From Prochlorococcus sp. AG-436-J02 (GTDB taxonomy: Bacteria; Cyanobacteriota; Cyanobacteriia; PCC-6307; Cyanobiaceae): 64,000 nucleotides of DNA. Location of the stretch: positions 1 to 64,000 of the forward strand of contig QCPI01000001.1 of NCBI GenBank assembly GCA_003212625.1, in the 5' to 3' direction. The position numbers and the translations under genes are program-made. Under the pieces are notes generated by a model. The model did not search any database and was not told the DNA's origin. It saw only the letters and a list, made by a program, of their open reading frames with translations. Of this stretch, positions 6,689 through 13,100 are shown one piece after another; within the stretch, counting starts at the first letter, position 1, and every line of letters begins with the position of its first letter.

Positions 6689-7762
6689 TTATGCAAATCC
6701 TTGAGGGGCTGATTTAGTCCGAACCTTAAACTCCCAAATAGTAATTCCTCCTATTGCATTGACTGCAGCTAGAGCACCATCATCAGGTCTCCACGCAATT
6801 TGACTTACGAGTTCTCCTGCGAAGGCCCCGCCAACTGGATCACCTTGACCATTTTTCTGAAGAAACCAAGCAAAAACAGAGCCATCTCTTGATCCAGAAG
6901 CTAAAAGCATCCCACTATTCGAGAAAGCAAGACTAGAAATTGAGTCCGTATGAAGAGTCAACTCTCCTGGTGCAGTACCTTCAGGACCATCGCCTTGAAA
7001 GCTCCAAACTGTTACTCGATCACTTCCACCAGTAGCAAGAACTGTCCCAGTAGAGTCAAAAGCAAGTTGACTTGGCTTGCCTGGATACCCAGTCATCTCA
7101 GCATCTTGCGCGGTTGACCGACGCCAAAAATGAACAGAATTATCCTGACTTCCGCAGGCCACAATATCTCCATCTGGGCTAAGCACCATCGACACGAGTG
7201 AACCTTGCCATTCCAGTTTTTGATTAACCTTGTCGCTAATGACGTCAAAGAAAGTTACTCGGCCATAACATGCAGTCGCTAATTCATTTGAATTAGACCA
7301 TGCAATTGCACTGGCAGTACTTGGATGTTGATCTGAACGCCATTGTTCTTGACCATTAGCACAAAAGACATAGACGTATCTGGAGAGAGTTACTGCTAAG
7401 AACTTCCCGTCTGGAGACCATTGAATATGTTCAGCCCATCCTTGCCCAAGATCTAAATCCTTAATCAACTCACCCTCTTTGCTATCCCATATCATGACAC
7501 GCCCATCCTGGCCTGCAGTAGCAAAAGATTTCCCATCAGGGTGAATAGACATCGCAAGCAACCCACCCTTATGGACCTCCTGTTTCTTCCAAATAACATC
7601 TCCAGACTTACCCTCAAATGAGTAAATTCCACCTGCAGAATCGCCAACCAAAAAAGCTTTACCTTGCAGGACCCATCCGCAGGTAATGGCATAGTCCTCA
7701 ACTTGAGCACTCCACCCCTTGTGCAGCATTCCCTTTGGAGTAAACGCTTCTATACCAGACAC
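6689..7762 (-). CDS. WD40-repeat protein
   Basis: Repeated LAxSxDGxxLAxGSxDGxVxxW units; overlaps the 3' end of the CobW-type gene by 13 nt. Confidence 0.9.
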   Translation of the reverse strand: MSGIEAFTPKGMLHKGWSAQVEDYAITCGWVLQGKAFLVGDSAGGIYSFEGKSGDVIWKKQEVHKGGLLAMSIHPDGKSFATAGQDGRVMIWDSKEGELIKDLDLGQGWAEHIQWSPDGKFLAVTLSRYVYVFCANGQEQWRSDQHPSTASAIAWSNSNELATACYGRVTFFDVISDKVNQKLEWQGSLVSMVLSPDGDIVACGSQDNSVHFWRRSTAQDAEMTGYPGKPSQLAFDSTGTVLATGGSDRVTVWSFQGDGPEGTAPGELTLHTDSISSLAFSNSGMLLASGSRDGSVFAWFLQKNGQGDPVGGAFAGELVSQIAWRPDDGALAAVNAIGGITIWEFKVRTKSAPQGFA

Positions 7763-9132
7763 TTGTCAAACTCCTTAGTCATTTCCTCTTCATCAAGATT
7801 TCGACCGATAAAAACTAATTGATTGCGGCGAGGTTCACTTCCCCATTCTTTATCTGGCTGTGCAGTGAAAAGCATATGTACTCCTTGAAAAACTATTCGC
7901 CTAGACTCTCCCGCATAACTAATGAATCCCTTTGTACGAAATATATCCACACCTTTTTCTGACAGGAGTCGACTTAACCATTTATTGAGTTTGTCTGGAT
8001 CTACATCGCCTACTCGCTCGATAGCAAATGAACCAACTTCGTCGTCGTGTTCATGCTCGGCCACCCAAGTCCGCTCAGCTATTGGAGGAATTATAGAGAT
8101 GTTCCGATCGTTATTTAACTCGTCATTAGAAGGAGTATTTACTTTCGTTAATTTCATATTAAATTCTTCGGCTGTATGTTGAGTGAATAGGCCTATATCC
8201 CTTGCCTTATCAATATCTATGAAAAATGACTTAGTCCCTTTGGATTGAAGTTGAAGGCTCACATGCCTGCCGACTGGAACTATATCCCCTGGATTCATCG
8301 GTTGTTCTTGTTCTGCGTAGAGTCTCACGCATGATTCAGCACCGTTGTTGAGAGCTGTCTCGTCTTTATCTTGGTCTAATAATAGGACGAGAGACATTGT
8401 GGGATCTGGACCTTCTTCGAGGGTAAGCTCATAGCGACCTTCTTTAAGTGAAAATACACCTGTCCACTCAAATGGGTATTCTGGTTCAAGAAAAGTTGGA
8501 CGACGCTGAAGTACTTGATCTAGATCAAAAGCACTTAGATTTAGCACAGTATTAATTGAGACGTCTGCTTGTTTACTGCGTATTACACGAGCCATACGAT
8601 TCATATCGCGAAGCCGTGACTCTAAGTTGTCGAGTGATTCATCTGAAACTAGATCAGTTTTATTTAGAACAAGGACGTCAGCAAAGGCAACTTGCTCCGC
8701 ACTCTCATCACTTCGACCAAGTTGTTGCTCTATATGGGCTGCATCAACAAGTGTGACTATGCCATCCAGTGAAAACTCCTCACGGATTTCATCGTCCATA
8801 AAGAATGTCTGAGCAACCGGACCAGGATCAGCAAGGCCAGTAGTTTCAACTAATACATAGTCGAACTTATCTCGTCTTTTCATGAGGTTACCCAATACAC
8901 GAATCAGGTCTCCACGAACAGTGCAGCAAATACAACCGTTGGACATTTCAAAGACTTCTTCGTCAGCATTAATGACCAACCCCTGATCAATACCGACTTC
9001 ACCATATTCATTTTCGATTACAGCAATTCGTTTACCATGCTCTTCACTCAAAATCCTGTTCAGAAGTGTTGTTTTCCCAGAGCCTAAGAAACCTGTAAGG
9101 ATTGTAACTGGGACTTTTTGTTCGGTATTCAT
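7750..9132 (-). CDS. CobW/COG0523-family GTPase (putative metallochaperone) with a ~110-aa inserted module
   Basis: GFLGSGKTT P-loop, GCICC motif, NKTD; His/Asp-containing stretch AEHEHDDE. Confidence 0.93.
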   Translation of the reverse strand: MNTEQKVPVTILTGFLGSGKTTLLNRILSEEHGKRIAVIENEYGEVGIDQGLVINADEEVFEMSNGCICCTVRGDLIRVLGNLMKRRDKFDYVLVETTGLADPGPVAQTFFMDDEIREEFSLDGIVTLVDAAHIEQQLGRSDESAEQVAFADVLVLNKTDLVSDESLDNLESRLRDMNRMARVIRSKQADVSINTVLNLSAFDLDQVLQRRPTFLEPEYPFEWTGVFSLKEGRYELTLEEGPDPTMSLVLLLDQDKDETALNNGAESCVRLYAEQEQPMNPGDIVPVGRHVSLQLQSKGTKSFFIDIDKARDIGLFTQHTAEEFNMKLTKVNTPSNDELNNDRNISIIPPIAERTWVAEHEHDDEVGSFAIERVGDVDPDKLNKWLSRLLSEKGVDIFRTKGFISYAGESRRIVFQGVHMLFTAQPDKEWGSEPRRNQLVFIGRNLDEEEMTKEFDKCLV

Positions 9133-9461
9133 TTTTGTTTTTTTAAGCTATGTGTACATTTCAAGTTTTCTAAACTCATATTTTTTACCCAATTGCTATC
9201 TATACCCAAGAGTTCAATAGCCTTTAATTCAAAATCATCTAGATCAAAGTAGTTGTAAGGTACTTTTAGCCTTAAGACTAATTGCTCATTTTCTTTTGAA
9301 ATGGAGTGATTTGAAAATTTAAATTCTTCAAGATTGTTTTCAAAATCATTTGATAAAGTTAATTTTAAGATTTTTTGCAAGTTCCATGGTGCTTGATCCA
9401 TGAAACTTGCTTGCTCTTCCCAGTATTCTTTATAAGCCTGTGTTCCTTTGGACTGTGACAT
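9129..9461 (-). CDS. hypothetical protein, first gene of the CobW-WD40 operon
   Basis: 110-aa ORF; 4-nt ATGA overlap with the CobW gene. Confidence 0.6.
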   Translation of the reverse strand: MSQSKGTQAYKEYWEEQASFMDQAPWNLQKILKLTLSNDFENNLEEFKFSNHSISKENEQLVLRLKVPYNYFDLDDFELKAIELLGIDSNWVKNMSLENLKCTHSLKKQK

Positions 9462-9516: not shown

Positions 9517-11088
9517 TTATCGTTTCTTTAATTGTGCCCATCTATTTGCTAGTTGATTACCTTCTTTCTTGTTGCAGGAACCGCCCAAAGAGTTAACGAT
9601 AGTACAAGTGTTATGCACACCTACAGAAATCGTGTTTCCTGTTGGCATCAAACCATCAACAAAAATTTGTTGCTTTGCTAAAGGGGTAGAAGTTTGTCTG
9701 CTTAGGTTTTTTAATAGTTTTGAAGGAGGTATTTGTTCAGGGAATAGAACTTGTACTTTGTTTTCACTTAGCGCCTTTATAACGCTTGAAATGGTCTGAG
9801 GCCTAAGGCTTGATGAATGACCAAGAAAATCTAAAAGGCTAATTGTTTTCAAACCAAAAGCATCCCCGTAATACTCCATGGCTTTATGCTTAGAAACTAT
9901 TGTCCTTTGATTAGAAGGAATTGTTGCGACTTGATTTTGAGTCCATTGATCTAAATCTTCCAAAATAGAATTAACAGATTGAGTTCTTTCTTTTAAAACT
10001 TTTTTAGTATCTCTATCAAAGAATGAAATTTTCTTGTTGAGATTTTTAGAAATGACATTTCCCATCTTGATGATGTTATGTGGATCATGCCAGACATGAG
10101 GATCGTGGCCTCCATGATCATGGTGATGGTGATCGCCTCCTTCCTCTGGAACTTGTGCTATCGGCTCAATATCATCGCCTGAAACATCTTTAAAGAAATG
10201 TTCATCGGCTTCAAGCTCAAAAGGCATATGCTCAGTAAAGAATGCATATTTACCAGCTTTTTTGATTTCTACTTTGAATGTTGTGCTGTTTTTCTTCTCA
10301 TTAAATGTAAGAACATATGCTTTTTCCTGTGCAACAAGTTTGTCATTATTGCGTTTAACTTCTGAATCTTTGGATCCTAATAAGTCTTCAGCAAGCTCTT
10401 CTGATGCCTCAATATCACCTGACTTGAGAATAACCATTTTCATTGCAGGATCAGCATATTCTCCATCGACTTTGGCAAACGACCATTTGTAGGTGCCTGC
10501 TGAAAGATCAAAAACACCAGCCCATTCAAAGGATCCATCTCCATGACCATCTCCATGATCATCGTGGTCGTCATGATCGTCATGCTTAGCAGCTGAATGA
10601 TCATCGTGGTCATCATGATCGTCGTGGTCGTCATGCTTAGCAGCTGAATGATCATCGTGGTCATCATGATCGTCTATTTCTATTGCACTTACGCCAACAA
10701 CAACAGTTAAGGGATTATCTAGCCATTGTTTAATTGCAGGGGTCATCTCTGAACCAAGAGTAAATACTTGACTCGCACTTTTTAGTTCTTGAGCTTGCCT
10801 TGGAGTGATTTTGACATCATGAACATCTATTTTTCTGTCAATTAAGCAGGTTACGGGTATTGAGGGTGGTGCAATTGCAGAGACAACATCGCAAGTCAAT
10901 GGCTCTACAGCAACAATTGATTTTGTATTTGCCTGTGCTGTTTGATTGATTCCTGAAAATAAAAATGCTCCAGCAACAAGAGAACTTTTGAGAACTGTTT
11001 TATTGATTATGGGTTTAGCCTTTTTGGACTGATTTGAAAAAATCGACATTAAAAATATAAAGCGTAGTAAAACGATAATCATTTTCAT
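9517..11088 (-). CDS. znuA: zinc ABC transporter substrate-binding protein with His/Asp-rich loop and inserted module; true start may be 11049
   Basis: HDPHVWHDPHN motif, His-rich loop, VHDVKITPRQAQEL, divergent from znuC. Confidence 0.88.
   Translation of the reverse strand: MKMIIVLLRFIFLMSIFSNQSKKAKPIINKTVLKSSLVAGAFLFSGINQTAQANTKSIVAVEPLTCDVVSAIAPPSIPVTCLIDRKIDVHDVKITPRQAQELKSASQVFTLGSEMTPAIKQWLDNPLTVVVGVSAIEIDDHDDHDDHSAAKHDDHDDHDDHDDHSAAKHDDHDDHDDHGDGHGDGSFEWAGVFDLSAGTYKWSFAKVDGEYADPAMKMVILKSGDIEASEELAEDLLGSKDSEVKRNNDKLVAQEKAYVLTFNEKKNSTTFKVEIKKAGKYAFFTEHMPFELEADEHFFKDVSGDDIEPIAQVPEEGGDHHHHDHGGHDPHVWHDPHNIIKMGNVISKNLNKKISFFDRDTKKVLKERTQSVNSILEDLDQWTQNQVATIPSNQRTIVSKHKAMEYYGDAFGLKTISLLDFLGHSSSLRPQTISSVIKALSENKVQVLFPEQIPPSKLLKNLSRQTSTPLAKQQIFVDGLMPTGNTISVGVHNTCTIVNSLGGSCNKKEGNQLANRWAQLKKR
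10537..10674. repeat. tandem repeat encoding the (HDD)n-SAAK His/Asp-rich loop of ZnuA
   Basis: Identical 43-bp segments at 10581..10623 and 10632..10674 (51-bp period). Confidence 0.9.
11073..11087. promoter_or_regulatory. candidate Fur/Zur-type operator in the znuA-znuC intergenic region
   Basis: CGATAATCATTTTCA, 7-1-7 palindrome with two mismatches. Confidence 0.5.
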
Positions 11089-11137
11089 TTGGTCTTGGCA
11101 AGTGTATTATGTTTCTTGTCAGCAAATCCTTTGATTG

Positions 11138-11833
11138 ATGCCTAGCTTGATTGCTGAAAATTTGACATATTCTTATTCAAGTAAAATTAAATCTGCTTTA
11201 AGCAAGGTTTCTCTAAAGCTTGAGCCAGGTACTTTGACTGCTCTTGTTGGTCCGAATGGTGCTGGTAAGTCCACATTATTAAGCTTGCTGCAAGGGAGTT
11301 TGAATCCGGATCAAGGAGAAATTACTGTTGATGGAAAACCATTGAGAAATAATCGATCTCAAGTGGCTTTAATGCCTCAGAGGGGGAAGCTGAATTGGAA
11401 TTTTCCAATTTCTGTTGAAGGATTAGTTTCTTTAGGTCGAGTCAATCATTCGAAATCGACTTGTTGTGAATTAGAAGCAGCTCTTCAACGTGTTGGAATA
11501 TCTCATTTAGCAAAAAGGCGACTTGATTCTTTATCCGGTGGTCAGCAACAAAGAGCGTTACTCGCAAAAACGTTGATGAATCCTGCCAAAATATTTTTAC
11601 TTGATGAACCTTGTTCCGCATTTGATCCCCCCGCAAAGGAAGATTTCCTATTAATCATCCGTCAGTTAGCTGATTCTGGATTAACAGTTTTCGTTAGTAG
11701 TCACGATTGGGGAACATCATTAAATGCTTATGACAAGGTTGTTGTTATAGATAAGATTATTTTGGCTTCTGGTAATCCTGAAGAGGTGCAGGAAAAACTG
11801 AGTTCAATTAATTATCTGAGATGGAAAACATAG
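11138..11833 (+). CDS. znuC: zinc/manganese ABC transporter ATP-binding protein
   Basis: Walker A GPNGAGKST, LSGGQQQR signature, LLDEP Walker B; ATG at 11138 (ORF track starts at an upstream TTG, 11135). Confidence 0.9.
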   Translation: MPSLIAENLTYSYSSKIKSALSKVSLKLEPGTLTALVGPNGAGKSTLLSLLQGSLNPDQGEITVDGKPLRNNRSQVALMPQRGKLNWNFPISVEGLVSLGRVNHSKSTCCELEAALQRVGISHLAKRRLDSLSGGQQQRALLAKTLMNPAKIFLLDEPCSAFDPPAKEDFLLIIRQLADSGLTVFVSSHDWGTSLNAYDKVVVIDKIILASGNPEEVQEKLSSINYLRWKT

Positions 11834-11859: not shown

Positions 11860-12261
11860 TCAAGCATTCAATTCTTGGGAGCAATTTTGGCAAAGGCCAA
11901 AGTATTCAAGAGTATGAAACAACAGCTCAAATTTTTTAGAGGTTTGCTGGGGTACCTTCATTGTTTTGACAGGGCATCCCTGCAATCGAGTGGTTTCACC
12001 GCAGCTCACGCAAGTTAAATGATGAATATCTCTTTCAACTGGTGCATAAAGGACCTCCCCGTTAGGAAGGTGTCTAGAGCGGATCAAACCTTGCTTTACT
12101 AAGACTTGGAGGTTTCTATATACAGTCGTAAGCCCCATTGTGTTTTCACCATTATGAAGTTTTCTATGCAGTTCTTGCCCACTCAATTCATCAGTACATC
12201 TTTTGAGTTCATTGAGAAGTTGTTGCTGTCTCTTAGTAATTGCAGGCTTGCTTCTATTCAT
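11860..12261 (-). CDS. zur: Fur-family metalloregulator, probably Zur by gene context
   Basis: TTVYRNLQVL recognition helix, HHLTCVSCG and CQNC metal sites; ATG at 12261 preferred over the track's TTG at 12267. Confidence 0.85.
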   Translation of the reverse strand: MNRSKPAITKRQQQLLNELKRCTDELSGQELHRKLHNGENTMGLTTVYRNLQVLVKQGLIRSRHLPNGEVLYAPVERDIHHLTCVSCGETTRLQGCPVKTMKVPQQTSKKFELLFHTLEYFGLCQNCSQELNA

Positions 12262-12314
12262 TAGCAAGATCTTAATTTGATCTCTTTAACAGAACATACT
12301 GAATCATTGGCTTA

Positions 12315-13100
12315 ATGTCTTTTATCAATACAAATTGGTGGATAATTCCTCTTCTGATAACTTCTTTCTCAGCTGTGCTTTGCCCTGCAATGGGGACTGT
12401 ATTAATCACTCACAAAAGGCTTCTTCAAGTTAATTTAATTTCGCACTGTGTGCTGCCAGGACTTGCCTTGGCAATGGCGCTTGGGATAGACCCATCTATT
12501 GGAGGAGTCTTAAGTGGATTAGTAGGAGCTATTGCAGCAGAAAGTTTGACAAATGAAAACAATCAAAATTATGAAGCTGTTATGAATACAATTCTTGCTG
12601 GTTCGATGGGTTTTGGTGTTTTGCTTATACCTCTACTTGGAATACGGATTGATTTGGAAGCTGTTTTATTTGGAGATTTATTAACTGCAAATTTGAGCGA
12701 TTTATTAAGAACTTTAATTGCTTTCTTGGCATTTATTTGCTTAATGCTTTTTGGGTACGACAAGCTTGTTTATATTGGCTTAGACCCAGAAGGAGCGGCT
12801 TCAAGTGGAGTTAATGTATCTTTTTTAAATTTGGCTCTTGGTTTTACTACGGCACTTGTCATTGTGAGCTCAATGTCTGCAGTGGGAGTCATTCTTGTGA
12901 TTGCTTTGCTTTCAACTCCAACTTTGTTGGGGTTACAGAAAGCAAGAACTCTATGGATTGCGATGGCTCGTTCCTCAATATTTGGATTAATTTTATCGCT
13001 CATAGGTTTTTCGCTGGCTATGATTTTCAATTTGCCTCCAGGACCTTTGATTAGTGTTCTTTGTGTGATTTCATTGATATTGCTACCAAGCAATAGATAG
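12315..13100 (+). CDS. znuB: metal ABC transporter permease
   Basis: ABC-3-type multi-TM permease sequence adjacent to zur/znuC. Confidence 0.88.
   Translation: MSFINTNWWIIPLLITSFSAVLCPAMGTVLITHKRLLQVNLISHCVLPGLALAMALGIDPSIGGVLSGLVGAIAAESLTNENNQNYEAVMNTILAGSMGFGVLLIPLLGIRIDLEAVLFGDLLTANLSDLLRTLIAFLAFICLMLFGYDKLVYIGLDPEGAASSGVNVSFLNLALGFTTALVIVSSMSAVGVILVIALLSTPTLLGLQKARTLWIAMARSSIFGLILSLIGFSLAMIFNLPPGPLISVLCVISLILLPSNR

Follow-up and report, generated by a model that had tools for sequence, protein, structure and literature searches.

Why should a cytoplasmic GTPase and a periplasmic zinc-binding protein, encoded two ORFs apart in a znu gene cluster, carry what appears to be the same domain? 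The question is raised by a locus in the 64,000-nucleotide stretch of Prochlorococcus DNA analysed here (the window), where a first-pass annotation had claimed that part of a CobW-type GTPase recurs within ZnuA. The shared stretch is present at 8143-8472, corresponding to residues 221-330 of the CobW-type protein, and the likeness lies well beyond chance. BLASTP of the two window proteins aligned CobW residues 221-324 with ZnuA residues 187-292 over 109 columns (E = 4e-7, ~28-29% identity), with a local score of 92 against 26.9 ± 4.8 in 5000 shuffles (maximum 52; z = 13.6). When a profile of 15 CobW-borne copies was compared with a profile of 5 ZnuA-borne copies, the two matched over 104 columns with an HH probability of 98.8 and E = 8.3e-17. 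All three comparisons agree, and the module is therefore real. A Gloeobacter-like CobW copy links the two as an intermediate, with matches to the CobW copy of the window (6e-30), to its ZnuA copy (5e-11) and to the ZnuA of haloarchaea (3e-19), and makes their homology secure; judged from their sequences, the CobW and ZnuA stretches are homologous. The limits given by the profiles are wider than the earlier interval, extending over CobW residues 218-332 (8137-8481) and ZnuA residues 184-311 (10156-10539). In the window genome, which is 54% complete, the ZnuA copy is the only one besides that in CobW.

The first host is a COG0523 (CobW-type) GTPase of 460 amino acids (7750..9132, minus strand), in which Pfam places PF02492 at residues 8-184 (E = 1.5e-61) and the CobW_C domain, PF07683, at residues 367-459 (E = 7e-26). 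It has the G3E core, the Walker A motif, the CxCC motif (GCICC in the sequence) and the CobW_C domain of the COG0523 proteins, and it matches E. coli YjiA with E = 1.2e-61. YjiA aligns over 4-214 and then again over 221-313, so that the insertion in the window protein falls exactly at the domain linker. While the GTPase core and the C-terminal domain are common to both proteins, the window CobW has ~115-145 additional residues between them that YjiA (1NIJ) lacks. The module, located by profile match, occupies residues 218-332 of this region (8137..8481, minus strand), where there is no match to Pfam or NCBIfam between PF02492 and CobW_C.

The second host is a ZnuA-type zinc substrate-binding protein (9517..11088, minus strand; PF01297, 5.6e-46), listed as 523 amino acids although the true start may be a later methionine. 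It gives a near-complete match in genomes of the same family. The protein is a two-lobed substrate-binding protein (SBP) of cluster A-I, with PF01297 matched in two stretches and with the His-rich loop that is thought to gather zinc. Profile match, BLASTP and hhalign place the module at residues 184-311 (10156..10539, minus strand), nested in this loop. A His/Asp-rich stretch of the loop lies directly before it (10540..10674) and a second His-rich stretch, QVPEEGGDHHHHDHGGHDPH, directly after it (10096..10155), both on the minus strand and both recognised from sequence and alignment. The CobW copies are without the flanking His-rich stretches that are present around the exported copies. Both lobes and the His-rich loop are shared with other zinc SBPs of cluster A-I (PF01297), but relative to its close paralogues the window ZnuA has a whole extra domain in the loop. 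A ZnuA search over 81 genomes of the family returned both full-length matches and module-less paralogues, in which the match ends at about residue 177 and restarts at about 318. One complete genome has both forms, a 503-residue ZnuA with the module, encoded alongside the module-bearing CobW, the WD40 protein, znuBC and the 110-residue protein described below, and a 374-residue ZnuA without it, encoded in a second znuBC/zur cluster and with lobes ~65% identical to those of the window ZnuA. In another genome a module-less ZnuA is found at the equivalent place, with a C-lobe identity of 85% and the His-rich loop intact. Given these natural module-less paralogues, the module is a clean insertion in ZnuA.

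Some Prochlorococcus ZnuA proteins carry the module in tandem, giving lengths of 615-616 and 873 residues (loci L091:3412-5259 and L097:3416-5260; ZnuA of genomes G271 and G212). According to a 2021 review, Prochlorococcus almost entirely lacks the ZnuA cluster CK_2462, whereas many Prochlorococcus genomes encode a module-bearing ZnuA; because of the insertion, the latter may fall in a different cluster.

The module, which is ~110-115 residues long, looks like an undescribed domain, one without a name in Pfam or NCBIfam. When 19 diverse modules were scanned against Pfam-A and NCBIfam, no family scored above its curated cut-off, and the only matches were weak ones in 1-3 of the 19 (for example DUF7055, E = 0.012; FeS_assembly_P, 0.0098; NF005913, 3.3e-4), and scans of the full-length host proteins gave no Pfam or NCBIfam match in the module region. 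The question left by the first-pass annotation, whether a named family covers it, is thus answered in the negative for these two libraries. A sequence profile of the module compared with PDB chains gave nothing significant, the best match being a phage tail tube protein at E = 0.044. No description of the domain was found in the open-access full texts searched.

Aligning 54 non-redundant copies, of which 44 are CobW-borne and 10 exported, leaves five columns without exception: a glutamate, an aspartate, a histidine, a second glutamate and the phenylalanine that follows it. The four residues E, D, H and E thus do not vary either inside or outside the membrane (54/54 copies), and correspond to E222, D243, H319 and E323 of the window CobW and to E188, D213, H287 and E291 of the window ZnuA. 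The phenylalanine is a leucine in the window ZnuA copy, which leaves E, D, H and E as the sole invariant potential metal ligands. Around them, W, G, L, DP, M and FT are nearly invariant. AlphaFold predicts the same fold for both copies, with three strands followed by a helix and further strands, and the module is confidently predicted to be a beta-sandwich with one helix in CobW and ZnuA alike. The means over the full proteins are poor (pLDDT 63 for CobW and 57 for ZnuA), but in 10-residue blocks of the AF2 models the modules are mostly at 72-94 in CobW and mostly at 81-95 in ZnuA. The alignment used for ZnuA contained CobW module rows; that used for CobW held CobW rows only, so the CobW prediction is independent of the ZnuA rows. 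Fold searches with these full-length models told little about the module. With the whole ZnuA model as the query, Foldseek against the PDB returned ZnuA/MntC-type SBPs among the matches listed, and the module had no listed match. Against viral models, the full-length models gave no credible match, the two matches to the CobW model with E < 0.001 having TM scores of 0.11-0.17.

Across the GTDB species genomes the module is encoded in at least 562 places, of which 80 were kept for study. These come from Prochlorococcus, Acidobacteria, Chloroflexi, Gemmatimonadetes, Rubrobacter, Gemmata, Gammaproteobacteria and others. Among the kept places nearly all of the non-cyanobacterial copies are in CobW proteins, although the 80 lean toward CobW hosts because the query started from a CobW copy. 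The commonest position, in many phyla, is within COG0523 proteins, where the module separates the GTPase core from CobW_C. With the groups named from locus titles and the centre genome included, the module was found in 23/292 genomes of Cyanobacteria, 9/149 of Acidobacteriota, 10/151 of Chloroflexota, 6/199 of Actinomycetota, 3/149 of Planctomycetota and 2/299 of Pseudomonadota, a distribution that is sporadic but wide. Plasmid records add the ZnuA of Halorubrum, Halorientalis and Haloarcula (in haloarchaea, as in Prochlorococcus, the module of ZnuA lies in the His-rich loop), small haloarchaeal lipoproteins with a Cys lipobox, and CobW proteins of Pantoea and Paraburkholderia. On a Natrinema plasmid a lipoprotein consisting of the stand-alone module is encoded directly 3' of the operon for urease, a nickel enzyme (L034:5872-6423). 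A further host, on an Alicyclobacillus plasmid, is a 303-residue membrane protein (L149:5788-6699) in which the module sits between His-rich stretches with hydrophobic segments around; it has no Pfam or NCBIfam match, and its gene is near those of cation transporters and metal regulators. By eye only, the protein looks transporter-like, with a motif resembling those of nickel/cobalt transporters. No relative of the module was found encoded in the viral contigs searched.

Nearly every host protein found is tied, at least plausibly, to metal handling. Since the hosts include several unrelated proteins, the first-pass annotation was right to call the domain mobile in the evolutionary sense, and its claim of a portable domain common to a GTPase of the cytoplasm and a zinc protein of the periplasm is borne out by the homology. 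The claim survived those of the annotation's own checks that were applied: the two profiles match strongly, strands and helix are predicted in one and the same order in both copies, and the module falls to no named family. What stands of that interpretation is a real, portable and unnamed domain with metal-handling hosts, while the metal sensing or partner docking that it suggested would be proposals; the two window copies need not be the product of a local exchange.

In the window, znuA, a gene for a 110-residue protein (orf110), cobW and wd40 lie head to tail, separated by overlaps or a short gap. The WD40 beta-propeller protein (6689..7762, minus strand; Pfam WD40, 2.7e-28) starts within the end of cobW, and orf110 (9129..9461, minus strand), between znuA and cobW, overlaps cobW by 4 bases. 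The product of orf110 has no match in Pfam or NCBIfam, and relatives keep the gene next to znuA or to what is left of it. All that survives of znuA in several Prochlorococcaceae genomes is a 3' remnant of ~53 codons; at the two such loci inspected an intact orf110 is close by (L232:1817-2143, minus strand; L233:4256-4582, plus strand). Divergent from znuA is the gene of a znuC-like ABC ATPase (11135..11833, plus strand), followed by that of a Fur-family regulator, Zur by context only (11860..12267, minus strand), and that of a znuB-like metal ABC permease (12315..13100, plus strand). These three were identified from sequence and have homologues in relatives, that of the ATPase at the same place and that of the regulator in znu clusters. 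The link between CobW, WD40 proteins and znuABC has been known since 2009, when COG0523 subfamily 5 was described as clustering with WD40 proteins, znuABC and creatinases (Haas et al. 2009, PMC2770081). A WD40 homologue is also found at 30 of the 38 module-CobW loci outside Prochlorococcus, normally directly 3' of the CobW gene and in several phyla, and part of the remaining 8 loci are cut by contig ends.

A palindrome resembling a Zur box, CGATAATCATTTTCA (11073..11087), lies at the start of znuA and its gap to znuC, with 2 mismatches to TGATAATNATTATCA. Sites with ≤2 mismatches were found at znuA in 26 cases among the Prochlorococcus loci listed, as against 6/2140 shuffled windows. The count of such sites over the whole window is not above chance, so it is position and conservation at znuA that speak for the site. 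A Zur box of its own was considered for cobW and rejected, with a site of ≤2 mismatches upstream in just 3/68 module-CobW loci. In the window, cobW is more probably transcribed by read-through from znuA. In Synechococcus WH8102 the znuABC cluster, synw0968-0973, is Zur-repressed and includes uncharacterised neighbours (PMC9337993).

What the module does is suggested chiefly by its conservation. Because the four residues are invariant in two compartments and in unrelated hosts, they form a putative metal site, in which the side chains of E, D, H and E would together bind one divalent ion; that they meet in space is something we infer from the sequences. It would seem somewhat probable that the beta-sandwich family binds a divalent transition metal through these residues, holds it and hands it over. 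In the COG0523 proteins the module would hold the metal beside the CxCC-containing GTPase core before passing it on, and in ZnuA it would do so inside the His-rich loop, handing over near the main site. Given znuABC and the Zur-like regulation, the metal would most likely be zinc, with cobalt or nickel possible in some hosts. Some module loci carry CbiM/CbiO-like cobalt uptake genes and the Pantoea locus has genes of an iron-chelate ABC transporter; the presence of cobalt, nickel or iron genes in the vicinity of some copies leaves the choice of metal uncertain. A bolder proposal, that this is an ancient and undescribed metal-binding fold, spread over bacteria and haloarchaea and plugged in for zinc capture and transfer on both sides of the membrane, has a little less than an even chance of being right.

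The invariant residues could serve another role. It is unlikely, but worth considering, that the module is a protein-docking domain, for instance for the cytoplasmic WD40 protein, with no metal site of its own. The steady company of the WD40 gene at the module-CobW loci points this way, as do the clustering of WD40 proteins with subfamily 5 in the 2009 account (PMC2770081) and its remark on propellers as interaction platforms. However, no WD40 genes were seen beside the haloarchaeal or Alicyclobacillus copies shown, and cytoplasmic and exported copies, which would not be expected to have a partner in common, keep the same E, D, H and E without exception. As far as sequence can tell, this invariance would favour metal binding over docking. 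Less likely again is a structural or allosteric insert, coupling the state of the GTPase to the C-terminal domain in CobW and shielding or positioning the His-rich loop in ZnuA, in which case the invariant residues would do no more than stabilise the fold. Its insertion exactly at the CobW linker and within the flexible ZnuA loop would suit such a part, and module-less paralogues persist, but a linker role explains poorly why four potential ligands are invariant across unrelated hosts that include free-standing lipoproteins. Quite improbable is a lineage-specific accident in which the adjoining CobW copy was duplicated locally into ZnuA. The genes are only two ORFs apart and Prochlorococcus ZnuA copies usually come from genomes or loci that also hold a CobW copy. 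In trees of the module, however, exported and CobW copies form separate groups, the cyanobacterial ZnuA copies joining the haloarchaeal exported ones (97/91 and 96/87 in two trees). A tree constrained to place them with the CobW copies of Prochlorococcaceae is worse by 24.6 log-likelihood units (p-AU 0.046), and the window copies are ~28% identical whereas Prochlorococcus-type CobW copies share 42-44% with the Gloeobacter-like CobW copy; the branches of the module tree are long, making this evidence on origin moderate, so that local duplication is weakly disfavoured and the case borderline.

A broader interest lies in how COG0523 GTPases receive their metal and recognise their clients. Here the module, which is separable, has four invariant residues and occurs also in the zinc importer encoded in its operon, offers a direct handle on these GTPases. 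Prochlorococcus lives where zinc is extremely low, and the module bears on how it takes up zinc. The module also picks out zinc-related genes that have a central region with no label in family libraries.

The linkage of COG0523, WD40 and zinc genes, ZnuA itself and accessory zinc domains are all of known kinds, and the locus can be set beside each. The neighbourhood of WD40 and znuABC resembles that of COG0523 subfamily 5, a likeness that is a match of neighbourhood alone, and the window CobW has an inserted domain of which the passages on that subfamily make no mention (Haas et al. 2009, PMC2770081). The diatom protein ZCRP-B was considered as a relative and rejected, being NikA-like according to its own paper. 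Anabaena ZepA (PMC10957091), compared here by description only, is a zinc-uptake protein under Zur control that contains an Ig-like beta-sandwich domain and is encoded near COG0523 genes; it differs in having three proposed histidine ligands and a PEP-CTERM, in contrast to the invariant E, D, H and E of the module.

The role proposed for the module, that of holding and passing on metal, would be comparable to that of ZinT in AdcA or of AztD beside AztC. ZinT and AztD are both accessory zinc domains that are fused to zinc SBPs or serve them, and AztD, a known periplasmic zinc donor, passes zinc directly to an SBP (PMC6689063). The module has no sequence match to the AdcA and AztD PDB entries, AztD being a beta-propeller, and unlike ZinT and AztD it occurs in the cytoplasm too. 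In Dehalococcoidia, at a locus near a module-CobW/WD40 pair, an 824-residue ZnuA has AztD nested at residues 258-626 between its two lobes, and at a second locus AztD precedes the ZnuA C-lobe. At the two AztD-ZnuA loci (L061:1835-4306, minus strand; L063:2689-4635, plus strand) the AztD-like propeller is at the position of the ZnuA His-rich loop. A zinc donor nested in ZnuA at the very place of the module supports the idea of an auxiliary metal domain for ZnuA.
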